DNA of 64,000 nt, taken from assembly GCF_007859945.1 (NCBI RefSeq), contig NZ_SJPQ01000004.1, forward strand, positions 310,001 to 374,000. Direction: 5' to 3'. The notes under the pieces were generated by a model. It had not been told where the DNA came from. It ran no database searches and worked only from the letters and a program-made list of their open reading frames with translations. Within the stretch, counting starts at the first letter, position 1, and each line of letters starts with the position of its first letter. The DNA comes from Pseudobythopirellula maris (GTDB lineage Bacteria; Planctomycetota; Planctomycetia; Pirellulales; Lacipirellulaceae). A program made the position numbers and the translations under genes. Shown in pieces: positions 14,601 through 52,379 of the stretch.

Positions 14601-14802
14601 GGAAGGTGACCAAGGTCTCGACTTCTTCAGGCGCCAGACCGTGCGCTTCGGTCATGACGACTACGCGGGGACGATTGAGGTTGGGAAATACGTCAATAGG
14701 CAGCTGCGTCGCCTGCCATCCTCCGTACCCCAGCAACAGCAAGGCAGCGGCGACTACCAGCAGCCGGTTGTGCAACGAGAAGCGAATGATTGCATTGAGC
14801 AC
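11623..14802 (-). CDS. HME-RND heavy-metal efflux pump (CzcA/CusA family)
   Basis: A 1059-residue RND transporter with the expected architecture: helix 1 at the N-terminus, two large periplasmic loops and two clusters of membrane helices. The helix-4 proton-relay region reads 'GELVDDAIVDVEN', corresponding to the VD-x-AIVxVEN motif of heavy-metal RND pumps. The family drives periplasmic metal out of the cell with a MFP adaptor and a TolC channel. The adaptor gene lies 21 bases upstream. Cu/Ag (CusA) versus Zn/Co/Cd (CzcA) cannot be settled by eye; the His-rich adaptor and lipoprotein argue for divalent ions, the CsoR/oxidase context for copper. Confidence 0.92.
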   Translation of the reverse strand: MLNAIIRFSLHNRLLVVAAALLLLGYGGWQATQLPIDVFPNLNRPRVVVMTEAHGLAPEEVETLVTFPIETVLNGATGVQAVRTSSGIGLSVVYVEFDWGTNIYNDRQIVAERMALAGDVLPLDVSPQLMPISSIMGQIMIAGMTAGEETSPMELRTLADWVVRQRLLTIPGVSQVIVMGGDRKQFQVLVDPDLLLRYGVTLHEVKQAIADSNQNTAGGYLDEQGPNEFLVRSLGRVSSADEIGDIVVRQRGRQSITLSQIARITEGAQVKRGDSSAFARNAEGEMVGGRSVVLTILKQPQADTRAVTNLVTEALEEMSDSLPSDVRLLPELYQQKEFIDLAIENVVEALRDGAILVVIILFLFLMNIRTTLITLTAIPLSIVITAMVFAVFGLSVNTMTLGGLAVAIGELVDDAIVDVENIFRRLRENRNKEHPKHPLLVVFQASVEIRNSIVYGTLIVMIVFVPLFALSGMEGRLFSPLGVSYIVSIASSLLVSLTVTPVLSFWLLRGKVTEGEERDVLLLRGLKAIAEAVIRFSLRLSWPILAAAATAVVVSGWSVLRLESDFLPPFNEGAVQINVILPPGTSLAMSNEVAGRVEQRLAQIDDLVAFVRKTGRAELDEHAEGVNVSEFVATVDPNTARSREEVIEEISEALADIPGIVTAVEQPLAHLISHMLSGVKAQIAIKLFGDDLDELRRQAQGMEAAIKDVEGVRDLQVEQQVIIPQLRIEADGKKLKAFGLRRSDVNQFVETAMQGEVISQVLDGQRTFDLMVRLGEEFREDLDALKRLQIDLPDGGSVKLEDVARIYKAGGPNTVNREQVRRRIVVQCNVSGRGLVDVVGDIKERLEPIRAELPAGYFVEFSGQFESQQSASRMISILFVVSLLGMFLVLYKMFSSANLALQVMVALPMAFIGSVASLYLTGQTLTIASMVGFISLCGIASRNGILLINHYLHLVKYEGEGWTRDMVVRAGKDRLAPVLMTALTSGIGLVPLALSAGEPGKEILYPVATVIIGGLITSTLLEFLVRPALFWTTGMKAARAVLESSHEQVELIEEEELAA

Positions 14803-29691: not shown

Positions 29692-30087
29692 TCAGAACGA
29701 TGGGCCCGTGAGGGTCTCGACCGTGATCTTGTCGATCGACGGCGCCGCCTCGGGGCGGTCGAACGTGCGGGGCCCGAGTTCTTCGAGCGACCTGATCTTG
29801 CCCGCGCCGATCAGGGCGTCGAGTTCGCTCAGGTTGCGGCCCTCGATCGTCAGGCAGTACTTCTCCATCCCCAGCAGGCAGAGCTGCAGGTGGCCGGCGT
29901 CGCGGAGCCGCGTCTCGCGGAGGTCGGCGTAGGCGTAGCTGACGACCCGGCCGTCCCGGAAGCGGACCTGGAACATCATCGGCGGCGGCTCGGTCGGCGC
30001 GGCGCGCTTCCACGGCGCGTCGAGGGGCCGCTGCTCAGCGAGGCCGGCGATGGCGTTTTGGTTGGAGGGGAATGGCATGTGCTTCAT
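29692..30087 (-). CDS. Small protein coupled to the relaxase, function unknown
   Basis: 131 residues; AGGAG lies nine bases before the start. It begins six bases past the relaxase stop, so it is in the same operon. The central part is beta-rich (MMFQVRFRDGRVVSYAYADL, VEKYCLTIEGRNL) and the end is Pro/Thr-rich. No family recognised; an accessory role with the relaxase is inferred from position. Confidence 0.6.
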   Translation of the reverse strand: MKHMPFPSNQNAIAGLAEQRPLDAPWKRAAPTEPPPMMFQVRFRDGRVVSYAYADLRETRLRDAGHLQLCLLGMEKYCLTIEGRNLSELDALIGAGKIRSLEELGPRTFDRPEAAPSIDKITVETLTGPSF

Positions 30088-30093
30088 CGGTCG

Positions 30094-32961
30094 TTAGCTC
30101 CTGCTGAGGCTCGGGCCGGGCCCGAAGGGGTTTGGACGGCCGGCCGGTGTGGGCGCCGCCGCGGCGGTCGGGCTCTTGGGGAAATTGGTCCGCCACCAGT
30201 CGCGTACGCGGTCGAGGAAGGCCCGCTTCGTCCGCTCGATCAGGATCCGACCGGCGGCGGCGCGGTAGGCGGCGGTCAGCCGAGTCGCCGAGAGCTGCTC
30301 GCCCGCGTTCTGGATCGCCCGCCGGACCGCCGCTTTGTCGTCGACGAACAGGATCAGGTCCTGCCGGCCGCGGGAGGCGGTGACGTAGAACTGCTTGGCG
30401 TTCACGGCCGGCAGCGACTCGCGGCCGATCGCGGCGATCGCCACGTCGCGGTCCTTGCCCTGGGACGCGTGCGACGTGATGACGTAGCCCAGGTCGAGGT
30501 GGCCGTAGTCCCGGGCGACGGTCATGCCGCCCTTCAGCAGCAGGTTGCCCGCCCTGTCGAACCCCTTCACCTCGTCGAGCCGTCCGTTGCTGATCCGCCG
30601 CTTGCCGTCGGTCGCCTTGCCGCCGAGGGTGAAGCGGACCCGGTCGCCGACCGCCAGGCCTAGCTTGGCTTGGCTGTAGACCTCGAAACGATCCGTCGCG
30701 TTATAAGGGATCGGCTTGGCGGGGCCGCCCGTGAGGGGCGATAGGAAGGGGAGGTTTTGGGCGTCGTGTTGGACTCGGAAGCGCTCGCCCCGCTGGTAGC
30801 CGCCGGCGACGTTCTGGTGGAACTGGACGACGAGACCGGCGTCCTCGTCGATAAAGGTGTAGCTGCTGGGCAAGGTCTTCTCGGCCTCGGTCAGGTTCAA
30901 AGACCGCAGCTGCGTCAGCTCGGTCTCTTCCTTCCCTATCGTCCCCGCCCCGCGGAGCCGCCCGCGGATCTCCGCGGTCGCCGCCTGCCCCTCGGCGTGC
31001 GTCGGGGCGACCACCAGGGTCGAACGGCCGGCGTGGGACGCCTTGAGGTAAGCGCCGGCCAGTGCTTCGTGGCGGTGGTCGCCCGGCAGCTCGTGGATCT
31101 TGCCAAGCCCGTCGAGCCGGTCGAAGCCGGCGAGCATGCCGGTCATGCCGGTCTTCACATCAACGACCTCGTGGCCGCGGCTGATCAGCTCGATCGCTTC
31201 TCGGTAGCGGCCCCGCTGGCGCTGGATCTTCTCGACGCGGGCGAGGTGCAAACCGGCTTCGCTCTCCAAGAGCCGCATCGCTTCGCCACGCCGCGGCGTG
31301 GCGTGCTGGCGGGTGTCGCCCGAGAGGACCACGCGGGCGTTGTGGGCTTTAGCGATCTCGAAGACGCCGTTCATCGCCCGCACGTCCAAGAGCCCCGCCT
31401 CGTCGATCCAGATCACTTGGTCGGCCAGCTCGGCGTGCCGCTTGGCGTTCTTCAGAAGGTGCTCGACCGTCTGGGCGTTCTCAAAACCTTTTTGCTGCAG
31501 GACCTCTCGGGCGCCGGTGCTGGGTGCAAAGACAAAGACCTCTTTCCCATTGCCCCGGATCGCCTCGGCCGCCTCTTCCATCAGCGACGACTTGCCCGTG
31601 CCGGCGCCGCCGGTGACCGCGGTCACGCTGTCCTTCGAAGCGAGCACGTGGCGGACGGCGTTCTGCTGCTGGTCGTTGAGCCACTCCCGCTTGAAGGCGT
31701 GCTCGGAGCGGCCGATCGGGAGGCGTGTGCCGCGGCTGTCGCGGGCGAAGGCGATCATCCGTCGCTCGGCTTCGAGGACCGCTTGCGTGGTGACGAAGTG
31801 GCGATCGGCGCCACGGACGCCCTGCGAGGCGTGGATCACCCCCTCCTCCTTCGCCAAAGCGGCTTCGATCGCTTCGGGCGGCAGCGTCAGACCCTGCTCC
31901 AAAGCGGTCCCCACGACCTGGTGCCGCTCGACGGTCGAGCTGCGGTACAAGTGGTGCTCCAGCGCGTAGCGAACCGCTTCGCTGGCCGCCAACGCCTCCC
32001 CCTCCTCCGCACTTCCCTTTCCGACCGCCCGCTTGGCGATTGCCGCGAAAGCCGCTTGCTCGGCTGGCGTCAGCCGCTCGCCCCATTGGTGACGCAGCCG
32101 GTCGACCACGACCCCTTGCTCCTTCTTCTGGCGGGTCTTGGCGCCCAACTCGCCCTTCGCGGCGGCCGACTCGATCCCGTGCTCTGCGGCGTAGGCCTCG
32201 ATCTGGGCCGTGCGCGCGCTGAACTTCTCGATCGTCGAGCGCTCGACGCCGGCCAGCTCCCAGCCCCGCTTCAGGCGGCGGCTTTGGCGGAATTGGGTCG
32301 CGACGACGCGGTAGCCGAGACGGTGCTCCAGCCGCCGCGCCAAGCGGGCGTCGAACTTCGCTTGGAGGGCGGGCATCTGCCGCATGACCTCCTCGAGCTC
32401 GGCCGCGTAGCAGCGGCCGCCGTCGAAGGTGAGGTTCTGGACGAAGGCGTGGACGTGGAGGTGGGGATCGACGACGCCATCCACGGGGCGCGAGGTCTTG
32501 TGGAGGAAGTCGGCGTAGACCAGGTTGCCGGTTGTCTTGCGGTCCGTCGAAGCCGCTTGGGCGCCGGCGCGAACCCGTCGGCACACCAAGGGCTCGACGT
32601 CGAGGGCCATCGTCTCGTGGACCGCTTCTCGCAGCACGCCGAGGATCCGCTCGTCGCCGTTGATCGCCCACACGAGCGACACGCTCTTGGGTACCGAGAA
32701 GGTCAGGTCGACGCCCGGGCGGCGGTCTTGGCGTAGCCGTTGCGCAAGCTTCTTGCCGGTGACCGGGTGGCGGCCTTCGAGGAGCGCTTTGAACTGCTCG
32801 GGGGTGACCGGGCGGCCCGCTGCCAAGCCGAGTGTGGCGGCCGCTTCGCCACGCCACGAGCCGTTGACCTCGGCGCCGAGGTAGTAGTCGCCTTGCGTCA
32901 GCGTCGTACGGAAGTACTGCTGGGCGCCGGCGACGCTGGTGGCTTGGGTGGCGTTGAGCAT
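30094..32961 (-). CDS. MobF-family relaxase-helicase
   Basis: 955 residues. The N-terminal relaxase domain has candidate catalytic tyrosines at 16 and 26/27 and the histidine triad HLHVH at 167-171 in 'PHLHVHAFVQNL', which binds the metal. The helicase part has Walker A GGAGTGKSS at 451-459 and the Walker B-like 'VIWIDEAGLLD', as in TraI/TrwC. It nicks DNA at oriT, attaches to the 5' end and unwinds the transferred strand. The intergenic region just upstream (32962-33272) is the natural place to look for oriT. The length is typical of TrwC-like members, shorter than F TraI. Confidence 0.93.
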   Translation of the reverse strand: MLNATQATSVAGAQQYFRTTLTQGDYYLGAEVNGSWRGEAAATLGLAAGRPVTPEQFKALLEGRHPVTGKKLAQRLRQDRRPGVDLTFSVPKSVSLVWAINGDERILGVLREAVHETMALDVEPLVCRRVRAGAQAASTDRKTTGNLVYADFLHKTSRPVDGVVDPHLHVHAFVQNLTFDGGRCYAAELEEVMRQMPALQAKFDARLARRLEHRLGYRVVATQFRQSRRLKRGWELAGVERSTIEKFSARTAQIEAYAAEHGIESAAAKGELGAKTRQKKEQGVVVDRLRHQWGERLTPAEQAAFAAIAKRAVGKGSAEEGEALAASEAVRYALEHHLYRSSTVERHQVVGTALEQGLTLPPEAIEAALAKEEGVIHASQGVRGADRHFVTTQAVLEAERRMIAFARDSRGTRLPIGRSEHAFKREWLNDQQQNAVRHVLASKDSVTAVTGGAGTGKSSLMEEAAEAIRGNGKEVFVFAPSTGAREVLQQKGFENAQTVEHLLKNAKRHAELADQVIWIDEAGLLDVRAMNGVFEIAKAHNARVVLSGDTRQHATPRRGEAMRLLESEAGLHLARVEKIQRQRGRYREAIELISRGHEVVDVKTGMTGMLAGFDRLDGLGKIHELPGDHRHEALAGAYLKASHAGRSTLVVAPTHAEGQAATAEIRGRLRGAGTIGKEETELTQLRSLNLTEAEKTLPSSYTFIDEDAGLVVQFHQNVAGGYQRGERFRVQHDAQNLPFLSPLTGGPAKPIPYNATDRFEVYSQAKLGLAVGDRVRFTLGGKATDGKRRISNGRLDEVKGFDRAGNLLLKGGMTVARDYGHLDLGYVITSHASQGKDRDVAIAAIGRESLPAVNAKQFYVTASRGRQDLILFVDDKAAVRRAIQNAGEQLSATRLTAAYRAAAGRILIERTKRAFLDRVRDWWRTNFPKSPTAAAAPTPAGRPNPFGPGPSLSRS

Positions 32962-33607: not shown

Positions 33608-34201
33608 CTAGCGCTTGGGGCCTTTGGACAGGCTCCAGTCGTCCTTGAGTTTCTTCGAGGCGCCGTCCATCTTCTGTTCTTTCTCTTTGATCTTGGCCAT
33701 CATCTTGAGGTCCTTGTCGATCTCGCTGGCCTGGCTGCCGCCCATCCCGGGCGGCTCGTGAGCAAGCGCTGGCCGCGGTTGGGAGAGTTCCGCCTTGAGG
33801 TTGTCGATCTGCTCGCGGGTCGTGGGGCCGGTCGTGTGGGCTGCCCCGTCGGCTTGGCCGGCGCCGCGGTCCGCGCCGCCGGCCTTCGGGCCGGCGTTGT
33901 CGGTCGCCTTCTTGCCGCGCTTCGCGTCGAGCTGATGCCGCAGCGCCTCGCGGTTCTCTAGGGCGTCGCTCCGCCCTTTGGTGAGTTCGCCCTGGCGCCG
34001 ATCGAGGTCGTCCCGCTTCCGCTCGTAGTCACTGACTTGCCGCTCGTAGATTGCCAGGGCCCCCTGGACTTGGTCGGCGAAGACGCCCCGCTGCTCGTCG
34101 AGCACGGCTTGTGTCTTCTCGTAATCCGAGAGCAAGTCGTTGAGGTCGTCGATCCGCTCGCGGAGCTCTTGCTCCGAGTCGTAGATGGTGTAGTCGGACA
34201 T
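33608..34201 (-). CDS. Coiled-coil protein of the transfer operon
   Basis: 197 residues. Residues 5-100 form a nearly continuous coiled coil (LRERIDDLNDLLSDYEKTQ...), followed by a Gly/Ala-rich linker with a basic patch and a Lys-rich tail. There is no signal peptide, so it is cytosolic. It lies 25 bases downstream of the small membrane protein gene in the coupling-protein operon. It could be an accessory DNA-processing or scaffolding protein; function unknown. Confidence 0.6.
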   Translation of the reverse strand: MSDYTIYDSEQELRERIDDLNDLLSDYEKTQAVLDEQRGVFADQVQGALAIYERQVSDYERKRDDLDRRQGELTKGRSDALENREALRHQLDAKRGKKATDNAGPKAGGADRGAGQADGAAHTTGPTTREQIDNLKAELSQPRPALAHEPPGMGGSQASEIDKDLKMMAKIKEKEQKMDGASKKLKDDWSLSKGPKR

Positions 34202-34226: not shown

Positions 34227-34562
34227 TTAGGGCGTCCGAGGCCAAAATGGGTCGGTCACGCGGCGCCACAGAGGCGGGTCAGGACGGACGAACAGCACGA
34301 GCGGGCAGTCCCCGGCGCCGTCCAGCCCGTCGGACTCGACGCGGCCCCGGAGGCCGACGTAGGTCGCGTTGAGGATCTGGGGGTGGGCGCGGCTCCCGCG
34401 GTAGCGGTATTCCCAGCGGAGAAGCGGCTCGCCGACCCGATCGATCAGCAGGCCCAACACGGCGCCGACGATCAGAACGTTGCGAACGCGCCGAACAACC
34501 TGGCGCCAGCTGATCAGGCATTGCGACGGGCTCTCGAAGGGAGAGCGGCTATTCGTGATCAC
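34227..34562 (-). CDS. Small membrane-anchored protein next to the coupling protein
   Basis: 111 residues with one hydrophobic helix (about 26-43, NVLIVGAVLGLLI) and a polar C-terminal domain. It starts two bases after the coupling protein stop, so translation is likely linked. No family recognised; a partner of the coupling protein is plausible from position. Confidence 0.55.
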   Translation of the reverse strand: MITNSRSPFESPSQCLISWRQVVRRVRNVLIVGAVLGLLIDRVGEPLLRWEYRYRGSRAHPQILNATYVGLRGRVESDGLDGAGDCPLVLFVRPDPPLWRRVTDPFWPRTP

Positions 34563-34564
34563 GG

Positions 34565-36232
34565 CTAAGCCCCCTTCTTGCGGTAGTACGGGTTCTCGTC
34601 GGCCAGCTTGGCGATCGCCGGCTCGTGCAGGTAGTTCACCAGGTCGACCAGGAACGCCGGCGCGTTGCCAAACAGCACGACCGCCTTGCGACGGTCGAGC
34701 CGCCTGATCGCGTCGGTGGTCAGGACGGGCCGCTGCTTGAAGTCGCCCGTGTACGAGACCTCGGGGACGCCCTCGTCCGACTCGCGCAGCGTGTGCGACC
34801 CGTCCGTGAAGGTCTCTTGGCCGGCCAGCTCGCTCAGCCGTTTGAGGTCCTCCAGCTCGGTCGTCGACATCGCCATGAGGACGTCGCAGTTCCCCTGGAT
34901 CTCGCGGGCAGCCTCCTTGCCGTAGATCCGCGCCAGCTGGGCTTCGAGCTGCTGGAGCACCAGCACGGGTTGGATCCCGTTCTTCCGATTACCCGCGATG
35001 ATCTCCATGAGATTGGGGATGTAGGTGTTGCCGATTTCATCGAGCAGGTAAACAACGCGCTGCTTCGACCGGTGGCGGACCAGGGCTTCGATCGAGGTCG
35101 AGATCGTCAGGTTGACGAACTGCTGCTGGCTCTTGAGCCGCTCGGGCGGCACGATCAAGAAGACGACGGTCGGCTCTTCCTTCAGCTTGCCCCAGTCGAG
35201 CTGGTGCCGGCTCACCTGCCGGCCAACCGGCCCCCCGGCGGCGAAGAGTTTTACCGACCGCGTCGCGGTGGTGATCGCGCCGGAGAACTCCTCGGGGCTG
35301 TTCGCCATCAGGCCCAGCACGCTCGAAGCCGACTCGGCCAGGGCGCTGCCGAAGGCGTCGCTCTCGCTGGCCGCTTCTAGGAGGCAGTGCATCTCGTCGC
35401 TGCTGCTCATCACGCACCGCCGCAGGCCCGGCAGCGTGACTTCGCCGTAGCGGTGCAAGAGCCAGAGGCTGAACGTCATCAGCACGAGCCGGGCCAGGTC
35501 ATCGAAGTGCTGGGTCGTGCCGTTCTGCTTGCCCGGCTCGACCCCCGCGTGCAGAAGGTTGACGAACGCGTCGACGTCCTCCAGCACGTTCTCGGCGGCC
35601 GCGTCGAGGTAGCCGGCCGGGTTCTGTTGGACCGACTCCATCGGGACCCCGAGCTCGCGGCCGAGCCGCTCCGCCTCGCTGGCGATCACCAAGACGTTGT
35701 AGCCGTGTGCGCGAAGGACGCGGTGGCTGACCGCGTACAGCTCCCCGGAGAAATCGGTGACGATGTACGACTGGAAAATATCCCTCGTCGGCTTGGGCGC
35801 CTTCAAGAGGTTCAGCAGGACGAAAGCGACCCCCTTCCAGCTGCCGGGGCGGCCGGCGACCAGCACCCCCGCCTCGCCGGAGTAGCGGGCCAGTTTCTTG
35901 CCGATCCGGCCGAGGATGATGCCTTCGTCGCCGAGCAAGCCGGCCACTTTGGCGTCGTGGGCGTCGCCGACCTTCGCCATGCCGTGCGACTTGCGGAAGC
36001 CTTCGAGTTGGCGGTGCCGCCGCAGGCGGTCGATCATCTGGTCGAGGGCCCAGAGCGATCTCATGCCAGCCACGACGGCGACAAGCGTGGCGGTGATCGC
36101 GGCAAACGCCGCGACGCCGTACCCGGCCTTGGCGTAAGGGTAGAGGCAGTACGCGGCCCCGCTCGCGAAGGCGGTGAGTGTCAACTGCCCCAGGAGCGTG
36201 GGCGGCGCCGGCTTGTTCGATGCTCTGCTCAC
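34565..36232 (-). CDS. VirD4/TraG-like conjugative coupling ATPase
   Basis: 555 residues. Two membrane helices at the N-terminus (about 12-32 and 37-57) are followed by a RecA-like ATPase domain. The Walker A-like loop is GRPGSWKG (127-134), with Trp where most members have Gly, which is odd for this family. The Walker B-like motif is VYLLDEIGN. The lower half matches TraG/TraD C-terminal ATPases (e.g. 'EIIAGNRKNGIQPVLVLQQLEAQLARIYG'). Coupling proteins move the relaxosome to the mating pore. No VirB pore genes are visible in this window. Confidence 0.85.
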   Translation of the reverse strand: MSRASNKPAPPTLLGQLTLTAFASGAAYCLYPYAKAGYGVAAFAAITATLVAVVAGMRSLWALDQMIDRLRRHRQLEGFRKSHGMAKVGDAHDAKVAGLLGDEGIILGRIGKKLARYSGEAGVLVAGRPGSWKGVAFVLLNLLKAPKPTRDIFQSYIVTDFSGELYAVSHRVLRAHGYNVLVIASEAERLGRELGVPMESVQQNPAGYLDAAAENVLEDVDAFVNLLHAGVEPGKQNGTTQHFDDLARLVLMTFSLWLLHRYGEVTLPGLRRCVMSSSDEMHCLLEAASESDAFGSALAESASSVLGLMANSPEEFSGAITTATRSVKLFAAGGPVGRQVSRHQLDWGKLKEEPTVVFLIVPPERLKSQQQFVNLTISTSIEALVRHRSKQRVVYLLDEIGNTYIPNLMEIIAGNRKNGIQPVLVLQQLEAQLARIYGKEAAREIQGNCDVLMAMSTTELEDLKRLSELAGQETFTDGSHTLRESDEGVPEVSYTGDFKQRPVLTTDAIRRLDRRKAVVLFGNAPAFLVDLVNYLHEPAIAKLADENPYYRKKGA

Positions 36233-36290: not shown

Positions 36291-36707
36291 TTAGGCGGAG
36301 GCGGGATTCTGGGGGGCACGCACCGGGGACGAGCGATGAACACGCCCGCTTTCTGCAGTGAAATCGTCGGCCGCCAGGACCTCCCGCATCCGCAGCGCGA
36401 GGCCCATCGCCGAGCACCCTTGCTCGCTGGCGAGCTTGTCGGCCACCAGCGCTTCCAGGTCGTCGGCGTCGATGGCTCCGCCGTTCTGGTCCAGCAGCTC
36501 GCGGACCGCGTCACGAACCTGCGCCTTCTTGGGGGCTGGCTTGGCCGTGTCGGAGCCTTGCCCGCCCAGTGCCCGGATCGCGGCGGCGACCTGACGGCGG
36601 GTCGATTTCAACTCGCTCACCTGCGTCTCGGCCGCTTGCAGGTCGCGATCGAGATCGGCTAGTTGCGAGGTAAGGCCGTTGCGGATGGTCTCAAGGGAAG
36701 TCTTCAT
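36291..36707 (-). CDS. Cytosolic coiled-coil protein of the transfer operon
   Basis: About 138 residues starting at 36707; an in-frame start at 36743 exists. Residues 5-40 are a coiled coil (ETIRNGLTSQLADLDRDL...), followed by a Lys/Ala-rich linker and a helical domain (QVRDAVRELLDQNGG...). No family recognised. It lies between the small membrane protein (36747-37172) and the coupling protein. Confidence 0.55.
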   Translation of the reverse strand: MKTSLETIRNGLTSQLADLDRDLQAAETQVSELKSTRRQVAAAIRALGGQGSDTAKPAPKKAQVRDAVRELLDQNGGAIDADDLEALVADKLASEQGCSAMGLALRMREVLAADDFTAESGRVHRSSPVRAPQNPASA

Positions 36708-36746
36708 CACAGTCGTCCTAGCCACAGGGGTCAGAGTTACCAAGAA

Positions 36747-37172
36747 CTACCGAGCAGTCGCTTCGCCGGAGGCTTGAATCGCTAGCGGAGTGACATCGGT
36801 CGATCCGGGGTCACCGCCGCCGGGGTCGCCGAGCCCGCGGGCATTCCCGTTGGCGAAGTCTTCGAAACGCACGGTTGACCACTCGATCAAGTCGCTGACT
36901 TGCGATGGCCCGCTGAGGTCAGCCCCAGCCAACCGAGCCAGGATGGCCGTGGTCGGGAGCCAGCACCAGATCGCTGCGACGGCAACCGCCGCGACGCCGG
37001 CTTTGAGCAACCAAGGCGAGAAACAAAAGAACAAGACTCTCAGCGCCAGGTTAAAATGCCCCCCGCCAGCGGGAGCCGGCAGAGCGCCTCGGCTATCGCG
37101 ACTCCGCCGCAGGCGTGACAGGTCAATCGGCGGCAGGATCGTCTCTCGGTCGTCAGCGTGATTGTGCAACAC
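36747..37172 (-). CDS. Single-pass membrane protein of the transfer operon
   Basis: 141 residues. A basic N-terminal cytosolic part (LSRLRRSRDSRG) is followed by a hydrophobic stretch (about 43-72) and a Gly-rich periplasmic tail. It starts 11 bases after the stop of the VWA protein gene. No family recognised. The position links it to the motor-like pair. Confidence 0.55.
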   Translation of the reverse strand: MLHNHADDRETILPPIDLSRLRRSRDSRGALPAPAGGGHFNLALRVLFFCFSPWLLKAGVAAVAVAAIWCWLPTTAILARLAGADLSGPSQVSDLIEWSTVRFEDFANGNARGLGDPGGGDPGSTDVTPLAIQASGEATAR

Positions 37173-37183
37173 GGCGGAGCTCC

Positions 37184-38179
37184 TTATCGACGGACGGCGT
37201 TGAAAATCGTTCGTTGCAACTCTCCCGTGTCAGTGGTGAACGACGACCCCTCCGACACGCTCCCCAACGCCTTGAACCATGCCCGGCTCTCGGCCGAGGC
37301 CGGGTCGCTCTTCGTCCAGTCGCTTTCGGCGTAGAGTGAGGCGACGGCCCGATCGCCGCGCTGCGCCCAGCGGCGGACCAAGCCCAGCAATTCCTGCTTG
37401 ACGAGCTTCTCCTGGCGGCTGTAGCCGGCGGCCCCGTCGAGTTCGGCTGGGCCAACATCGCCAACGAAGACCAGGCGGAACTTCCGCTGCGGGTCGCGGC
37501 GGGCGTCGGCTTCAAGCACGCGGATTGCTTCCCGCAGCACGGGGCCGTGGTCGGTATTGGATCGCTCTACTTTCAGCGTCGCTAGGAATTGCATCGCCTT
37601 CAGCTCCGAGGCGCCCTCGTCTTCACTAGTCGGAAGGATCTCCATAATGGGCAGCTGCTTGGAGACGCCCTGGCGGAACGAGATGGCCCCGAACCGGAAG
37701 CTTTCGCTGCGGCTGCTCATGAACGCGCAAAGCGTCTTGGTGCCCGAGACGATCTCACGGTGCGGAGCGGCCATCGACCAGGTCTCGTCGACGACGATCA
37801 GCAGTGTCACCGGGGCGTCGTTGGGGATCTTCGACCGGAGGTCCGTGACGAGTGACTTGTAGCCCCCGAGCGCCTTGCCCTGGCTCGCGATGACGAGGCC
37901 TTGCTTGTCGATCTTGCCTCGGTAGGCCCCGATGCGTTCTCCCATTTGCTGGATGACAACGCCCTGCTTCTCGACCTTTGTGCGGTACCCACCGACCTGG
38001 TCGCCGAGTCTCTCAACCTGCGTCCTCAGCCCTGGGACAAGACCCGCTTGCCGCTCGAGACTGGCCACCCGAACCTGTTCGGATTGGGTCGTAATCAAGA
38101 ACAGGGCGAGCACCTGCAGGACCAGGTCGATGAACACCCGTGACGCGACGTTGCGACGGCGTGACTTGCGAGGGTTCAT
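37184..38179 (-). CDS. ExbD/MotB-like stator protein with a periplasmic VWA domain
   Basis: 331 residues. A basic start is followed by one membrane helix with an Asp near its beginning (Asp18 in 'RVFIDLVLQVLALFLITTQ'), the arrangement of the proton-carrying Asp in ExbD/TolR/MotB. Residues 40-112 are a periplasmic coiled coil made of about 21-residue repeats ending in GGYR/GAYR/GGYK. From 122 on there is a von Willebrand A domain with a MIDAS-like motif DETWS (Asp131, Thr133, Ser135). MotB and ZorB instead end in an OmpA-like peptidoglycan-binding domain, so this combination is unusual. It overlaps the ExbB/MotA-like gene by four bases. Confidence 0.7.
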   Translation of the reverse strand: MNPRKSRRRNVASRVFIDLVLQVLALFLITTQSEQVRVASLERQAGLVPGLRTQVERLGDQVGGYRTKVEKQGVVIQQMGERIGAYRGKIDKQGLVIASQGKALGGYKSLVTDLRSKIPNDAPVTLLIVVDETWSMAAPHREIVSGTKTLCAFMSSRSESFRFGAISFRQGVSKQLPIMEILPTSEDEGASELKAMQFLATLKVERSNTDHGPVLREAIRVLEADARRDPQRKFRLVFVGDVGPAELDGAAGYSRQEKLVKQELLGLVRRWAQRGDRAVASLYAESDWTKSDPASAESRAWFKALGSVSEGSSFTTDTGELQRTIFNAVRR

Positions 38180-38883
38180 GCTTTCCTCCGGAACAGACTG
38201 TCGCGGTTGGGGTCGTGCTTCGCCGGCATAAACCGGACGCCGGCCAGGCGGACCCGCAAGCTGTTGACGTGCTTCTCAACCGCCACCTCGGCCCGCGACT
38301 CCAGACCGAGCAGCGACATCGCGGCGAAGAGACCGGCCACCGAGGTCGCGGACATCGTCACCACGCCACTGGACATCGCCGCGACACTCGCCTGACCGCC
38401 AAGCGATGAACCGACCGCGGCCAGACCGACCATCGACCCGGCCACCGCGAGCAACGCGGCTTGCTCCCCCGCGTCGCCGATCCGCTTCACGTCCGCGTCC
38501 AGAGGCTCACGGACCACGCTCAGCAGGGCCTCGTCGATGTCGGTGGCCCCCTCGACGCTGTGCGTCCGTTTGAGGATCGCCAGCTCGTGAAGCGTGCTGT
38601 CTGATTGGCCGGTGAGCACGTCGTCGGCGTCGTTGATGGAAAGGCCCGCGAGCAAATCATCGTCTCGTTGGTTTTCTAGGCTCGCGGACTGCAGGCCGTG
38701 AGCCAGGCGTCGGTAGGGCGACACGCCGTTGACGGAGGCGAGGACCACAATGGCGCCAACGGAGAAGGCGGCGAGTTGGTCGATCCCCAAGCCGACCAGC
38801 ACCACGCCGGCCAGGAATAAACATTGGGTCAGCCAAGCCCGTCCCTCTCGGCCCAGACGGCTGTCGTGGTTTGTCGTGCTCAT
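38176..38883 (-). CDS. ExbB/MotA-like proton-channel subunit
   Basis: 235 residues. Two hydrophobic segments near the N-terminus (about 17-36 and 38-53) are followed by a cytosolic loop (about 55-138) and two further helices (about 142-162 and 168-193). The latter are Gly/Ala/Ser-rich (VAGSMVGLAAVGSSLGG; VVTMSATSVAGLFAAMSLLGLE), as in the pore helices of the MotA/TolQ/ExbB family, whose TM3 carries a Thr/Ser facing the ExbD Asp. It overlaps both neighbours by four bases, so the three genes are translationally coupled. The family call is by motif pattern and pairing, not by alignment. Confidence 0.68.
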   Translation of the reverse strand: MSTTNHDSRLGREGRAWLTQCLFLAGVVLVGLGIDQLAAFSVGAIVVLASVNGVSPYRRLAHGLQSASLENQRDDDLLAGLSINDADDVLTGQSDSTLHELAILKRTHSVEGATDIDEALLSVVREPLDADVKRIGDAGEQAALLAVAGSMVGLAAVGSSLGGQASVAAMSSGVVTMSATSVAGLFAAMSLLGLESRAEVAVEKHVNSLRVRLAGVRFMPAKHDPNRDSLFRRKA

Positions 38884-39422
38884 AGCAGCTCCTCCGATCG
38901 CGAGGGCCCGTCGGGGTCGTTCAGGCAGCCGAACACGGCGAGGCGAGCCAGCGCGATGAGTCGTGCGCTGGTGTGCCGAATCGAGTTCTTCGAGGACTTC
39001 TTCACCTCCTCGTCGCGGATTTGATCGAGCTCGGCGATCCCGTTGTCGGCGTAGCAGGCGATCGTTTTGATCGTGTCCACCAATCCGATGTACTCGTCCA
39101 GGCTCTCGCGCTGCATGAGGGCTCGCGCCCGCAGCTCGGTCTGGAAATCGGTGAACACCTCTTGCACGTCCACCCGGTGGATGGCCGTGTCACGCGCCGC
39201 CTTGTCGCTGCGGGCATAAGCGTCGGTCCTCGCCTTCTCGTGGCTGGCGTGCCGGATCGTTTCCTCGTGACCCTCGCGCCGCCGTTGCCTGACGCTCTGG
39301 TCGGCGTTAAGAGGGTCTTGGCTCCGAGACGGGCCAACGAAGCCGTTGTCGACCCCGCCTCCGCGGCCGCCGCTACGCGACGCGATCTGTCGGAGCCGGT
39401 TGACCTGATTGCCGTAGCTCAT
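38880..39422 (-). CDS. Polar coiled-coil protein, first gene of the motor-like operon
   Basis: 180 residues. The N-terminal third is low-complexity and rich in Gly, Arg and Gln (basic); the rest is helical (about 80-175). There is no membrane helix or signal peptide. Its stop overlaps the ExbB/MotA-like start by four bases. No family recognised; it may sit on the cytosolic face of the motor. Confidence 0.6.
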   Translation of the reverse strand: MSYGNQVNRLRQIASRSGGRGGGVDNGFVGPSRSQDPLNADQSVRQRRREGHEETIRHASHEKARTDAYARSDKAARDTAIHRVDVQEVFTDFQTELRARALMQRESLDEYIGLVDTIKTIACYADNGIAELDQIRDEEVKKSSKNSIRHTSARLIALARLAVFGCLNDPDGPSRSEELL

Positions 39423-39725
39423 GAAGTTTCTCCTCGTTTAGAACAGGGGCGGCTGGTGATAGAACCAGAACAAGATGCACTCCGTTGATCCTTGCAGAGG
39501 CGACTCTACCCACTCGGCACGCCTTCACCGATGTGGCGCTCTACGGCGTGCGTTTGGAGGACCGATGTATTGCAATCTCATCCGGACATCCTTAAACATG
39601 GGATTCGGGCTCACGCACGTTGCGCCGTGCGTTGTTCCCACGCCGGATAAATCGATGAGCCCACCCCCGAAGTGACACCGGGTCCAAGAAATATTTCCCT
39701 GCGCGTCAATCAGACGAGATCGCCC
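39423..39725. other. Divergent promoter region between the transfer operon and the sigma factor
   Basis: No gene supported. Minus-strand transfer genes begin on the left and the plus-strand sigma factor/kinase genes on the right, so both promoters should lie here. I do not see a clear -35/-10 pair. Confidence 0.5.
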
Positions 39726-40316
39726 ATGGATCGTGACCCTCCCGGCTCGGTGACCGCGTGGATCGATGGGCTGCGTGAAGGAGAAAGCCTCGCGGAGCGA
39801 GCGCTCTGGGACCGCTACTTTGCTAGTTTGGTGGCGATGGCGGGAAGCAGGCTCGATCGGCTGACGGCCGAAGCGGACGGAGAGGACATCGCTTTGAGCG
39901 CCCTGAACAGCGTGATGGGCGCGCTCCGGAACGGTCGGCTCCCGGAGCTCGCCGACCGGACGGGGCTCTGGCCGCTGCTTGTCACTCTGACGCAGCGGAA
40001 ATCGATTGATCAGAGGAAGCGCTTGCTAGCCAATAAACGCTCCGCTTGGATGACCGAGCCGCTGGGTGAGTTCCGGGCGATCGTCAGCAAGGAACCCTCC
40101 CCCGAATTCGCCGCCGTCTTGTCGGACGAACTGGAGCGGCTCCTCACGCTGACCGACGACCCCAAGCTAAAGGCGATTGCGCTGAAGAAGCTTGAGGGTT
40201 ACACGAACGAAGAGATCGCCCAGCAGTTGTCGATGTCGGTCCGAACGGTGATCCGGAAGCTCAACCGTGTCCGGCAGGAGTGGGATCAGCCCTTCGATGA
40301 GGAGGACCAACCGTGA
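39726..40316 (+). CDS. ECF-type RNA polymerase sigma factor
   Basis: About 196 residues. The start at 39726 (MDRDPPGSV) is preferred; an in-frame start at 39672 exists. Sigma-2 region: 'WIDGLREGESLAERALWDRYF...LVTLTQRKSIDQRKR'. Sigma-4 helix-turn-helix: 'LEGYTNEEIAQQLSMSVRTVIRKL'. It matches the planctomycete-type ECF sigma factors that come with Ser/Thr kinases. It overlaps the kinase start by four bases (GTGA), so kinase and sigma are probably a signalling pair, with phosphorylation controlling the sigma factor as known for related systems. Confidence 0.88.
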   Translation: MDRDPPGSVTAWIDGLREGESLAERALWDRYFASLVAMAGSRLDRLTAEADGEDIALSALNSVMGALRNGRLPELADRTGLWPLLVTLTQRKSIDQRKRLLANKRSAWMTEPLGEFRAIVSKEPSPEFAAVLSDELERLLTLTDDPKLKAIALKKLEGYTNEEIAQQLSMSVRTVIRKLNRVRQEWDQPFDEEDQP

Positions 40317-42682
40317 GCCAGGACGAATCTCTGCCGTTGCGAGTGACGCGTCAGATCGACGCGCTGTGCGACGAATTCGAGTCCCGTCTCGAGCGGGGCG
40401 AGCTGCCCCCGTTGGGCCCGCTGGTCGATCGAGTCGATCCCGAAGGGCGGAAGCTGCTCCTCGTCGAATTGGTCGGGCTTTCGCTCGATCACCTGCGGCG
40501 CCAAGGTTTCAACGACGCATCGAGGCGTCTTCTCGAGTCCAATCCTGGCCTGGCGGGCGAGCTGACCCCGTTGCTCGACAGCGAGCTGGTGACAGCGACC
40601 CACGTTCCGGCAGTCGCTGAGGCCGCGACAGGTCGTGGCTTGCACCTGCGGTGCCCGCACTGCCAGAACGCGATCGAGCTAGCGGCGGACGCGGAGCTGA
40701 CGAGCGTCGCGTGTCCGTCGTGCGGCAGCGGCTTCAGCCTGGTCGGCGGCCCCAAGGGGGGGACGGTGGAGATCGCTACGGTCGCCCACTTCAGGCTGAC
40801 AGAGCGGGTCGGGATGGGCGCGTTTGGCTCGGTGTGGAAGGCGCACGACACGAAGCTTGACCGTACGGTGGCGGTGAAGATCCCCCGCCGTGGGCAATTC
40901 GACGAGAAGCAGGAGAAGGCGTTCGTCCGCGAAGCGCAGAACACCGCGCGGCTCAGCCACGCCGGCATCGTGCCGGTGTTTGAGGTGGGCAGAGACGGCG
41001 ACCTGCTCTACATCGTCAGTGAGTTTGTCCGCGGCGTCACCCTCGCTGATCGGCTCAAGAACCAGCAGCCGACGCCCCGTGAGGCGGCCGAACTGGGCGT
41101 CAAGATCGCCCACGCCCTGCAGCACGCCCACGAACAGGGTGTCATTCACCGCGACCTGAAGCCGGGCAACGTCATGCTCGGCGACCACGGCGAACCCCGG
41201 CTCATGGACTTCGGCCTCGCGAAACGCGACGCGGCCGAGATTACGGTTTCGATCGACGGCCACATCATCGGGACGCCGGCGTACATGGCGCCCGAGCAGG
41301 CGCGGGGCGAAGCGCAAGCCACCGACGCGCGGAGCGACGTCTACTCCCTCGGCGTGGTGCTCTACGAGTTGCTGACGGGGGAGCGGCCGTTCCGCGGCAG
41401 CGTCCGCATGCTGCTGCAGCAGGTGCTGGAAGACGATCCCCCCAGCCCCCGCAAGCTCAGGGCCACCGTCCCGCGTGACCTGGAGACGATCTCCCTGAAG
41501 TGTCTGGAGAAGTCTCCGCAGCGGCGTTACCAATCGGCGACCGAGGTGGCCGACGAGCTGTCGCGGTGGCTGGACGGTAAGAGCGTCCTCGCACGCCCCA
41601 CCCCACCGGTCCAGAGGGCCTGGCGTTGGTGCCGACGCAACCCGGCGCCGGCAGCCGCACTCCTCGCCTCCTCCGCCGCCTGCTTGCTCCTCATCGCCCT
41701 GATTGTCTACCGCGGTCGCTTGAGTCGTTTTGCGTCCATCGATGAGACTGCTGGTTCGCTTGCGCTGGGCGCCGAGGAAGGGTTGCTTCTGGTCGGCGAT
41801 CAAAAAGTGTTAATCGAACCAGCCTTCCTGGAGAAGCCTGGGGCAACGGATCAGTCCCCCACGGCCGGGCTCGATCACTATTGGTTGCCTATTGCAGAGC
41901 TCGTCCCCGATGAGCGAGACAGCCATGTATCCACCGAGCACTGTTACCTTGAGCATCGGGCGTCCGGGCGGATTTATCCCACCACGGCAGATAAGCAGCA
42001 ACACTTTGGGATGCTTGCGGTTGCCTCCCCCGACGGGCGCATCGCCTACACGCCCCTGACGGCGTACGACATTCCTACAGGGGCGGAAGAGTGGACCCTA
42101 CGCCCTCCCAAACCGGACTTCGGCTACGGCGGACCGGCCCACGATGTAGTCGCCAAACAACTCGCGTACCTTAAGCAGAGGATGGACCCCGATTTCGGCA
42201 ATGAGAATAAGGTTCGCTCGCGGACAAGAAGCATGACGCTCGACGCTAGCCGGCATCGATTGATCTTCGCGGGTAGCGATGGTGGGGTGTGGCCCGTGAT
42301 GGACCGCGTCGCCTTGTGGTGGCGCGACACCTCAGATGGATCGTTGCAAAAAGTAGTTGCTCTCCCCAGCGTCACCAACCTCGATGCGATCGGGTGGTGT
42401 AAAGAGACCGACTCACTGGTGGCGGCGGGCGTGCGGGTCGGGAGTCTCCACATCTACGAGTTGGATCCGGAGAGTGGAGTGATTATGCGTTCAAGGCACT
42501 TCGAAGCGCCAGGGACGCGATACCACGCCAGATACATATTAATCAACGAGAGGGAGAGGATGACCCTGCTAGAGGCAGCGGGCAGTGGCTCTTCCCCTCC
42601 CGTTAGGGGAAGCGAGGAACACCCCTGGAAGCGACTGGCGTTTGTTGATCCCGCAACGCTCGACGTGATCCGTTATGAATAA
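40313..42682 (+). CDS. Ser/Thr protein kinase with extracytoplasmic sensor (copy 1)
   Basis: 789 residues, GTG start overlapping the sigma stop. Residues 1-100 form an N-terminal helical part, followed by a zinc ribbon (C114, C117, C134, C137). The Hanks-type kinase domain has the Gly loop (VGMGAFG, 166-172), Lys189, HRDLKPGN (catalytic Asp281), DFG (299-301) and APE. One membrane helix (about 446-466) leads to a C-terminal beta-rich sensor of about 320 residues. The sequence from the zinc ribbon to the membrane helix is repeated exactly in the next gene. It likely controls the sigma factor encoded upstream. Confidence 0.9.
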   Translation: MSQDESLPLRVTRQIDALCDEFESRLERGELPPLGPLVDRVDPEGRKLLLVELVGLSLDHLRRQGFNDASRRLLESNPGLAGELTPLLDSELVTATHVPAVAEAATGRGLHLRCPHCQNAIELAADAELTSVACPSCGSGFSLVGGPKGGTVEIATVAHFRLTERVGMGAFGSVWKAHDTKLDRTVAVKIPRRGQFDEKQEKAFVREAQNTARLSHAGIVPVFEVGRDGDLLYIVSEFVRGVTLADRLKNQQPTPREAAELGVKIAHALQHAHEQGVIHRDLKPGNVMLGDHGEPRLMDFGLAKRDAAEITVSIDGHIIGTPAYMAPEQARGEAQATDARSDVYSLGVVLYELLTGERPFRGSVRMLLQQVLEDDPPSPRKLRATVPRDLETISLKCLEKSPQRRYQSATEVADELSRWLDGKSVLARPTPPVQRAWRWCRRNPAPAAALLASSAACLLLIALIVYRGRLSRFASIDETAGSLALGAEEGLLLVGDQKVLIEPAFLEKPGATDQSPTAGLDHYWLPIAELVPDERDSHVSTEHCYLEHRASGRIYPTTADKQQHFGMLAVASPDGRIAYTPLTAYDIPTGAEEWTLRPPKPDFGYGGPAHDVVAKQLAYLKQRMDPDFGNENKVRSRTRSMTLDASRHRLIFAGSDGGVWPVMDRVALWWRDTSDGSLQKVVALPSVTNLDAIGWCKETDSLVAAGVRVGSLHIYELDPESGVIMRSRHFEAPGTRYHARYILINERERMTLLEAAGSGSSPPVRGSEEHPWKRLAFVDPATLDVIRYE
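40615..41701 (+). repeat. 1.09-kb direct repeat, copy 1 (zinc ribbon, kinase and membrane helix)
   Basis: This 1087-base segment recurs at 42828-43914, an offset of 2213 bases. The translated proteins are identical over it and the DNA appears identical on both strands. The boundaries are sharp: sequence differs directly before and after. The frame is the same in both genes. Confidence 0.85.
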
Positions 42683-50845: not shown

Positions 50846-52111
50846 CTAGCTAGCTCGCAACTCCGGATCGTTATCGGCGCCCGCCCCAAACACCGACTCG
50901 ATCGCCGCCCTTCGTTGAGCCGGAAAGAGGTGCCGGTAGCGACGCCGCATCTCCTCGGTCTGATGCCCCATGAACTCGTCGATGACCCGCTGGTCGACCC
51001 CGGCGCCCGCGAGGTTAGAGGCGAACGAATGGCGGAAGACGTGGAACCCCGTTACGAAGTCCCACTTGCTCTTCGCCATCGTCTGCTTGAGATGGTGCTG
51101 TGCCTGCCAAACCGTGAGAGGCGTGACTTGGCGGTATCCCCTCAGCTGACAGAAAGTGTGCTGGCCGCCGGGGTGGCTCTCGATCCACTCCTGCATCACT
51201 TGGTAGAGCAGGGGGCTCATGTCGACGCGTCGGTAAGTCGTCGCTTTCGTGCGGCTCTTCTTTTTTTCGCGCAGCAGGACCGTCCTCGATCGGAAGTCAA
51301 CGTCCTCGATGAGCGATCGCACCATCTCGCTACGGCGGGCGGAGGTGTGAGCGACAAAGAGCAGCATCGGGTAGATGAAGGGATACCTGGCGTTCCCGCG
51401 GGCGTGCTCTAAAGCCCCACGGACTTCGGCGGTATCCAGGTAGACCGAATCCCAGAGCCGACGCTCCTCTGGCTCGCTGAGCCCGCCGCGGGCGACGATC
51501 GCCCGAACCTCCCGCGTTGTCATGAAAGGCGGCTTCTCGTCGGTCAGCGGCAGCGCGACGTGCTTGGTGGGAGAAACGCCGACCAACAGCCCTTCTTGGA
51601 CCCCCCAGTTCCAGAGCATGCGGAAGGTGACCAGCTCCTTCCGCACGGTGTCGGGCTGAATAGGCTCGCCGTGGTGCGTCTCGCTGAGGCGTTTGGAGGC
51701 AAAGTTTTGCAGGTCCGCTTTGGTGATCGATTGCACCGTGCGATGAGGGCCCATGTGCCGCTTGAGGTGCTTCAGGTGGAGCGCCTCCCCGCGGAGAGTA
51801 GAGGGTTCCTTTCGGCCCTCAGGGAGTCTGGCTTGGTACGTGGCGTAGAGCTCTGTTAGCCCGATTGCCACTGACGCTTTTGCTTTCGTTGTGGCCTTCC
51901 CATCGGAGAGGATAAAGTCGATGGCCCGGACCCCAGCGGGGATCTCAATGCGCCCGTTTTCTAGCAGACGCAGCGTCTCCTCGATGCGTGAGCAGTGGCC
52001 CGTGGCTTTGTGTTTGTCGGGGGTCCCCAGCGAGCGGTTGAACTGGCGGCCCTCGAAGCGGAACCGAACGCTAAAGTTGGGGGATTTGCTGTCCCGGTGC
52101 AGGCTTGCCAT
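50846..52111 (-). CDS. Tyrosine recombinase (integrase) of the mobile element
   Basis: About 421 residues; the start at 52111 has GGGAG eight bases upstream and is preferred to an in-frame start at 52336 that would run into the tRNA gene. The catalytic set is visible: Arg259 in 'HTSARRSE', the lysine-rich turn near 283-289, HVFR (His357, Arg360), His383 in 'FMGHQ' and the nucleophile Tyr392 in 'RRRYRHL'. It sits 182 bases from the 3' end of tRNA-Leu, the usual target of such integrases. Confidence 0.92.
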   Translation of the reverse strand: MASLHRDSKSPNFSVRFRFEGRQFNRSLGTPDKHKATGHCSRIEETLRLLENGRIEIPAGVRAIDFILSDGKATTKAKASVAIGLTELYATYQARLPEGRKEPSTLRGEALHLKHLKRHMGPHRTVQSITKADLQNFASKRLSETHHGEPIQPDTVRKELVTFRMLWNWGVQEGLLVGVSPTKHVALPLTDEKPPFMTTREVRAIVARGGLSEPEERRLWDSVYLDTAEVRGALEHARGNARYPFIYPMLLFVAHTSARRSEMVRSLIEDVDFRSRTVLLREKKKSRTKATTYRRVDMSPLLYQVMQEWIESHPGGQHTFCQLRGYRQVTPLTVWQAQHHLKQTMAKSKWDFVTGFHVFRHSFASNLAGAGVDQRVIDEFMGHQTEEMRRRYRHLFPAQRRAAIESVFGAGADNDPELRAS

Positions 52112-52293
52112 CCCGATTTCTCCCGCCGTACGCACCATTGCGTTGTGGCGGGTGAATCGTAGGGCGGCGACTGATTGGAGGCCATCAACGCCAGTGCCAT
52201 GTGGGCGCCCGGATGTTCCGAATTTGTTCCGAGTCGGTTTTTGGAGCAGAGAATGACCCACGCCGCAATCGACGTAAGTCCTTTGATACCAAG

Positions 52294-52379
52294 TAGCCGA
52301 GGCGGGACTCGAACCCGCACGAGGGTTACCCCCCACCGGATTTTAAGTCCGGAGCGTCTGCCAATTCCGCCACTCGGCC
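52294..52379 (-). tRNA. tRNA-Leu (anticodon UAA)
   Basis: 86 bases on the minus strand, class II tRNA with a long variable arm. The acceptor pairs GGCCGAG with CTCGGCT (first pair G-U), the D-arm region reads TGGCGGAATTGGCAGACGC, the anticodon stem CCGGA/TCCGG holds the loop CTTAAAA (anticodon TAA), and the T-arm is GCGGG-TTCGAGT-CCCGC. CCA is not encoded. Its 3' half next to the integrase is the probable attachment site. Confidence 0.93.

Follow-up and report, generated by a model that had tools for sequence, protein, structure and literature searches.

In the 64,000-nucleotide stretch of Pseudobythopirellula maris DNA analysed here (the window; part of contig C4 of a 5.07-Mb draft genome in 6 contigs), the transfer operon of a mobile element contains two adjoining genes, M and V. 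In our judgement there is about an even chance that their products make up an ion-driven motor in the inner membrane, of the MotA/ExbB-MotB/ExbD type and with a B subunit ending in a VWA domain, and that this motor is a dedicated part of the element's DNA-transfer apparatus. The sequences show a pair with a conserved Asp and a conserved Thr, recurring upstream of related VirD4 proteins in diverged Planctomycetota and kept by purifying selection. Perhaps the pair, which would span the envelope, replaces classical mating-pair formation, a function that we infer. The pair and two transfer proteins encoded on the same strand lie as follows:

38176..38883, - strand: M, MotA/TolQ/ExbB-like four-helix membrane protein, 235 aa (open reading frame (ORF), hydropathy, Pfam matches of relatives, PDB profile search)
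37184..38179, - strand: V, N-terminal transmembrane helix with Asp18, coiled coil and C-terminal VWA domain, 331 aa (ORF, hydropathy, Pfam matches of relatives, fold search)
34565..36232, - strand: VirD4-like type IV coupling protein (T4CP), 555 aa (Pfam T4SS-DNA_transf, E 3e-36)
30094..32961, - strand: MobF (TrwC/TraI-type) relaxase-helicase, 955 aa (Pfam TrwC, E 2e-69; NCBIfam MobF above cut-off)

The Pfam and NCBIfam matches bear out the VirD4-like protein and the MobF relaxase proposed in a first-pass annotation of the window.

Motor-like features of M and V

The first-pass annotation had ascribed MotA/ExbB-type helices to M, which agrees with its MotA-like topology, with its invariant columns and with a relative that scores over the MotA_ExbB cut-off. 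Hydrophobic peaks lie at residues 18-34, 38-54, 142-158 and 178-194, and all four complete M sequences (4/4) show four hydrophobic segments, the second and third of which are separated by a long stretch. Among five M relatives, one of them partial (the G099 protein, whose contig begins inside the gene), G149, G153, T180, L191 and L213 are invariant, so that a GxxxG motif in the next-to-last helix (G149, G153) and a Thr in the last helix (T180) are present in 5/5; by its position in the alignment, T180 is presumably the known pore Thr. The Pfam MotA_ExbB model (PF01618) gave 33.7 bits for the G099 relative, which passes the cut-off of 22.9, 19.7 for that of G548 and 13.6 for that of G340. A five-sequence M profile searched against the PDB at E up to 10 found MotA, PomA or TolQ in 14/14 matches, all weak (E 0.0065 to 1.1), and the G099 protein alone, at E up to 1, gave 10 matches, 8 of them PomA, ZorA or TolQ, the other two being an unrelated dehydrogenase, which was the top match, and one DARPin. 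Seven of 246 genomes of the order were matched in the M search: the window's own, Botrimarina hoheduenensis (G091; of the same family, Lacipirellulaceae, Planctomycetota) and five with short, weak matches. The match in G186 (L013) lies inside a 1404-aa protein and was discarded as unrelated.

V has Asp18 within its N-terminal hydrophobic helix, as expected of the ExbD/MotB-type helix claimed for it earlier, and in 5/5 V relatives the only N-terminal helix bears an Asp close to its start (D18 or D19). A 21-residue repeat, likewise proposed from the sequence, was recovered in the linker as an identity autocorrelation peak of 0.242 at lag 21, a maximum reached by 3 of 2000 shuffles at any lag from 3 to 34; it is also present in Botrimarina and not in G548. 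The linker comprises 83 residues, equivalent to ~12 nm if fully helical. Beyond it stands the predicted MIDAS-like (metal ion-dependent adhesion site) motif, DETWS at 131-135, and the V set carries DETWS, DTSAS and DTSQS, with DSTGS in G099. The VWA_2 match of the window V is weak (E 0.0042, 18.1 bits; Pfam cut-off 27); the relatives in G548 and G340 pass the Pfam VWA cut-offs, whereas the V proteins of the window and G099 do not. The structure models of M and V were built from two close sequences only and are hence of poor confidence. For V (predicted local distance difference test, pLDDT, 42.6) the order of strands and helices fits a VWA domain, and Foldseek gave 34 matches with E no higher than 0.001, chiefly to VWA/MIDAS-type chains (counted as such by name or, for some, by their fold), with low template-modelling scores of 0.26-0.37 by query length among the 50 matches listed. 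The C-terminus of V is a VWA domain rather than an OmpA-like or ExbD/TolR fold.

Between the window and Botrimarina, M is 84% and V 87% identical. The ratios of nonsynonymous to synonymous substitution rates (dN/dS) are 0.14 for M, 0.10 for V, 0.19 for the T4CP and 0.23 for MobF, and the values for M and V indicate real genes under purifying selection. The V search matched three of the 246 genomes of the order (its own, Botrimarina and, at 28% identity, G099), and the V gene of G099:C79 is split across two frames (L012 492-1479), by real decay or by an assembly error. A V profile gave three strong matches in 392 genomes of the phylum (window, G548, G340), all members of the query profile and all adjoining T4CPs; the other 8 matches were partial VWA at E 3.6e-11 or weaker. 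No plasmid matched the V proteins of the window, G548 or G340, and viral contigs gave no match for MobF or V and two weak partial matches for the T4CP.

Recurrence of the pair beside VirD4-type coupling proteins

The T4CP search found 7 places in 5 of the 246 genomes of the order, and a profile of five T4CPs found 12 places in 9 of the 392 genomes of the phylum, which together make 18 distinct places. Ten loci combine a close T4CP with a readable upstream side: the window, Botrimarina, G058, G099 (contigs C79, C77 and C126), G396, G548, G340 and G399; the G194 contig begins within its T4CP, leaving the upstream side unreadable. The M-V pair lies upstream of the T4CP in five of the ten (type A: window, Botrimarina, G099 C79, G548, G340), and a different multi-helix protein with a VWA protein that has a signal-like start takes the place in four (type B: G058, G099 C126, G396, G399). 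At G099 C77 the type-B membrane protein is accompanied by a secreted-type protein in which no VWA domain was recognised, and altogether a VWA protein precedes the T4CP in 9/10. Directly after the T4CP, a small bitopic protein is found in 10/10 readable loci (the close ten minus G099 C126, plus G194), aligned for seven and recognised by eye in the ORF lists of Botrimarina, G548 and G058. Judged by these gene orders, the place of the pair upstream of the T4CP is not accidental, and its tie to DNA transfer is firmer than the first-pass annotation could tell. That annotation would have taken it as a refutation if other coupling proteins lacked the pair; for close T4CPs the outcome speaks against refutation, and for distant ones it is mixed.

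In the T4CP tree, G099 C79 (type A) falls within the clade of G099 C126, G099 C77 and G396 (type B) with support of 100/100, these four T4CPs being 55-60% identical, and the window and Botrimarina (type A) group with G058 (type B) at 92/94, slightly short of the threshold applied. With the two types intermixed in this way, the simplest account is an exchange of the upstream cassette beside a T4CP that was retained. The relaxases are of the MobF type in the window, Botrimarina and G099 C77 (by family or alignment) and in G396 and G548 (by eye), and PF03432 relaxases are found in G340 and on plasmid pPla86_1, which matches G399:C2 in length and in the position of its T4CP. Either relaxase family is thus met with both cassette types, and the cassette goes with the coupling protein and not with one relaxase.

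The type-B cassettes of L021, L024, L043 and L046 consist of a multi-helix protein, whose N-terminal part is long, and a secreted or lipoprotein-like VWA protein. Type-B membrane proteins are 16-24% identical to the first row of their alignment, and no Pfam family was matched in two tested. The VWA families of the two types gave no convincing alignment (A5 vs A9, probability 1.8). The type-B VWA protein of G399 alone reached 95.7 (E 1.1e-8) against A5, no stronger than generic VWA matches, and BLASTP of it against the G548 V found no match.

Mating apparatus in the carrier genomes

Three Pfam models of mating apparatus components, VirB4 (PF03135), P-loop_TraG (PF19044) and VirB10/TrbI (PF03743), each matched 0/8 carrier genomes, three of which are single contigs of 99-100% completeness, and matched 1/14, 8/14 and 2/14 control genomes, respectively; diverged VirB4-type ATPases could escape such models. 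PF03135 occurs in 5/392 genomes of the phylum (two families) and in 1/217 of good quality. Plasmid searches matched 1067 records with the window T4CP and 159 with MobF, and four planctomycete plasmids from these matches were inspected, three whole and pK2D_1 over 44 of 70 kb. A relaxase is present in each and a coupling protein in three, the match in pK2D_1 being just under the cut-off, and no gene named VirB4 occurs in the four gene tables, which are incomplete. In PLSDB, pK2D_1 and pPla86_1 are classed as mobilizable, whereas pSINAC03 is classed as conjugative, with MPF_T.

For the passage of DNA across the planctomycete envelope, with relaxases and coupling proteins present and the VirB4 family rare, a conserved motor-plus-VWA cassette adjoining the coupling protein is a concrete candidate.

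Proposed mechanism and alternative explanations

In the mechanism that we propose, a pentamer of M around a dimer of V would conduct ions past Asp18, and this flow would move V, whose coiled coil would carry the VWA domain across the periplasm. The VWA domain, which probably binds metal, might there reach a ligand on the wall, the outer membrane or the partner cell, so that movement of V could open, load or stabilise a path through the envelope, into which the ATP-driven coupling protein would feed the relaxase-bound strand. Sister elements fill the same slot with a different membrane protein and a secreted VWA protein. A wider proposition is that Planctomycetota possess a VirB4-independent mode of transfer, in which VirD4, an ion-driven rotary VWA motor (or the alternative VWA cassette) and the small bitopic protein constitute a new class of conjugation machine; this we regard as doubtful, if still conceivable.

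Several points weigh against a motor dedicated to DNA transfer. At E up to 1, the Pfam model MotA_ExbB (PF01618) does not match the M of the window, whose predicted structure is useless (mean pLDDT 37.6), and the window-Botrimarina M profile aligned with the other three M proteins at a modest hhalign probability of 32.5 (E 4.7e-4), which supports the relationship without deciding it. Ion flow, the M5:V2 complex, rotation and the role in transfer are all things that we infer. The T4CP profile was built from cassette-bearing loci, five of the ten close ones among them, so the sample is not unbiased. No pair was seen by ORF lists read by eye, hydropathy and MIDAS pattern at seven more distant T4CP loci (G468 at E 2.5e-43, six between 2.4e-17 and 3e-29). 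The MobF elements L028 and L030 have no T4CP or pair within ~10 kb upstream of MobF (L027, whose sequence starts at MobF, was counted neither way), and other proteins adjoin the T4CP on Isosphaeraceae plasmids. DNA transfer in the phylum therefore need not always use the pair. Furthermore, elements that encode a T4CP and borrow the mating apparatus of another element are known, CloDF13 among them, and lack of VirB4 accordingly does not prove replacement.

The same example lends credit to the idea of a mobilizable element that brings its own T4CP and uses a helper's mating apparatus, with the pair as an accessory that docks the T4CP or primes the envelope. T4CP-bearing mobilizable plasmids such as CloDF13, the missing VirB4 and VirB10 matches in the carrier genomes and the PLSDB types (two mobilizable plasmids, and one conjugative with MPF_T) would all suit it, but helpers look scarce, given the PF03135 counts in carriers and phylum, and we think such dependence rather unlikely. 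We would also be somewhat surprised if the pair proved to be a contact sensor or exclusion system, sensing mating contact or blocking redundant transfer outside the DNA path. Adhesion and protein-protein contacts are what VWA domains are best known for, according to PMC12204202. Two interchangeable cassettes beside similar T4CPs could, moreover, mean specificity types. Specificity factors usually diversify, however, and the dN/dS values of M and V are below those of the T4CP and MobF; an ion-pore pair also seems costly for a mere sensor.

A general envelope motor for adhesion, gliding, uptake or division that the element merely carries is, to our mind, very improbable. TolQ-like/vWA motors do occur in Proteobacteria and Verrucomicrobia with no link to conjugation stated in the section of PMC12204202 on them, but here the strong V matches adjoin T4CPs, and diverged elements retain the slot although their relaxases differ. 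The anti-phage defence of Zorya type that the first-pass annotation had entertained as cargo has hardly any probability left. ZorAB is likewise a MotAB-like pair, and the G099 M has weak ZorA matches in the PDB (E 0.28-0.67). V, however, has a VWA domain in place of the OmpA-like part, and the pair holds the same place in the transfer operons of several diverged loci. PADLOC gave no match for M or V, and the matches of their neighbours (10 proteins in all) were to coiled-coil or helicase-domain models and none to Zorya, on which ground Zorya defence was rejected. A dedicated motor in DNA transfer remains the reading that we carry forward, and what stands of the earlier interpretation is the tie of an ExbB/MotA-type protein and an ExbD-helix-VWA protein to DNA transfer, without the Zorya-like defence and the novelty of layout.

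Operon neighbours and the mobile element

The remaining features of the operon and the element are:

38880..39422, - strand: 180-aa product of the operon's first gene, without a visible hydrophobic helix (no family matched)
36747..37172, - strand: 141-aa protein encoded between V and the T4CP, a single hydrophobic stretch (ORF; no Pfam family)
36291..36743, - strand: 150-aa coiled-coil-like protein (ORF, Pfam scan)
34227..34562, - strand: small bitopic protein, 111 aa (similar protein right after the T4CP in relatives)
33608..34201, - strand: coiled-coil-like protein, 197 aa (ORF, Pfam scan)
29692..30087, - strand: 131-aa protein after MobF (82% and 63% identity in two relatives)
39672..40316, + strand: sigma factor of the ECF (extracytoplasmic function) type, divergent from the operon (Pfam Sigma70_ECF, E 7.9e-33)
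40313..42682, + strand: serine/threonine protein kinase, next after the sigma factor (Pfam Pkinase, E 5.4e-50)
50846..52336, - strand: tyrosine integrase (Pfam Phage_integrase, E 1.7e-23)
52294..52351, no strand: 58-bp stretch within tRNA-Leu (52293-52379, - strand), repeated perfectly and in direct orientation at G000:C4:296652-296709

The gene order on the - strand is 180-aa protein, M, V, 141-aa protein, coiled-coil-like protein and T4CP, followed by the small bitopic protein, the second coiled-coil-like protein, a gap, MobF and the 131-aa protein. The 180-aa gene, M and V were found on this strand just where the first-pass annotation had drawn them, with 4-base overlaps at both junctions as it had said. 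The 180-aa protein is 80% identical to its Botrimarina counterpart (dN/dS 0.11), and by eye no counterpart was recognised at the same place in G548 or G340. Proteins resembling the 150-aa coiled-coil-like protein were seen by eye near the coupling protein in L021, L023 and L043. The 131-aa type also follows MobF, by eye, in L027, L028, L030 and L044; together with the alignment of two relatives, this suggests a marker of the MobF element family. The ECF sigma factor possibly regulates the operon. By eye, sigma-factor-like and kinase-like genes likewise diverge from the cassette in L024 (4309-6271, + strand), and the arrangement shared with the window is possibly conserved regulation. The kinase genes at 40313-42682 and 42787-44901 (+ strand) have a long stretch in common, apparently identical, that covers a zinc ribbon and part of the kinase, and differ in their C-terminal parts; they are probably a recent tandem duplication. 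PHROGs gave nothing useful.

The copies of the 58-bp perfect direct repeat stand 65.6 kb apart in the same orientation and bound ~65.7 kb, with one integrase gene just within either end; they are likely the attachment sites. The listed start of the integrase at 50846..52336 overlaps the tRNA, and its true start probably lies further in. A second integrase lies just inside the far copy (L069 647-1921), and a partial third copy (89%) occurs further out at C4:282004-282041, so that the region may be composite. Further genes of the region are of RepC-like, Toprim and ArdC type. An RND-type (resistance-nodulation-division) efflux gene (ACR_tran; window 11623-14802) is probably for heavy-metal efflux and likely cargo of the element. 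Integrase, attachment repeats, relaxase and coupling protein, the hallmarks of an integrative and conjugative or integrative and mobilizable element (ICE/IME), are all present. An origin-of-transfer (oriT) hairpin was sought by folding the 109 bases upstream of MobF, and nothing was found (z 0.49).

Comparison with known systems

Among the matches listed, the literature gave no paper joining TolQ/ExbB or vWA motors to conjugation and none describing a planctomycete T4CP-pair module. A paper on Isosphaeraceae plasmids (PMC5352709) does not use the terms relaxase, conjugat, type IV, TraG, VirD4 and mobil in its main text, and the main text of a review of type IV secretion systems (PMC12857230) has no MotA, ExbB, von Willebrand or VWA.

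The operon resembles VirB/D4 type IV secretion in its VirD4-type coupling protein with a MobF or MobA/VirD2-type relaxase, and differs in that the eight carrier genomes lack VirB4 and VirB10 model matches. It resembles Zorya in having a MotAB-like pair on mobile DNA, and differs from ZorAB in that V is without the OmpA-like part, no Zorya model matches in the operon and a coupling protein adjoins. With the 5:2 ion motors MotAB, ExbBD and TolQR, the pair shares the topology and conserved positions of the A subunit and the Asp helix of the B subunit. B subunits of the TolR/ExbD type end in the TolR/ExbD fold, whereas V ends in a VWA domain, neither OmpA-like nor of that fold.

The nearest likeness in layout is to a family published in 2025, and the first-pass annotation was in this respect mistaken in knowing of no described system with such a layout. 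PMC12204202 describes, as its second vWA family, proteins with an Asp-bearing transpore helix (TPH-vWA) that are encoded beside TolQ-like genes, with no TolR and without an assigned function; the clusters predominantly carry two different vWA genes and come from Proteobacteria and Verrucomicrobia, and DNA-transfer genes are not named in the section on these pairs. The window pair has the same Asp helix with a vWA domain, a TolQ-like neighbour and no TolR/ExbD gene (PMC12204202, Fig. 4c-d, for the family), and by eye no other ExbD-like protein is found among the operon ORFs. It differs in having one vWA gene, in belonging to Planctomycetota and in lying upstream of a T4CP; the ORF lists show one V gene each in the window, G091, G548 and G340. 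As far as our searches reach, the pair type itself is thus not new, and its placement in a DNA-transfer module of VirB4-poor bacteria is; a role in transfer, if true, would give a function to a class of motors published without one.

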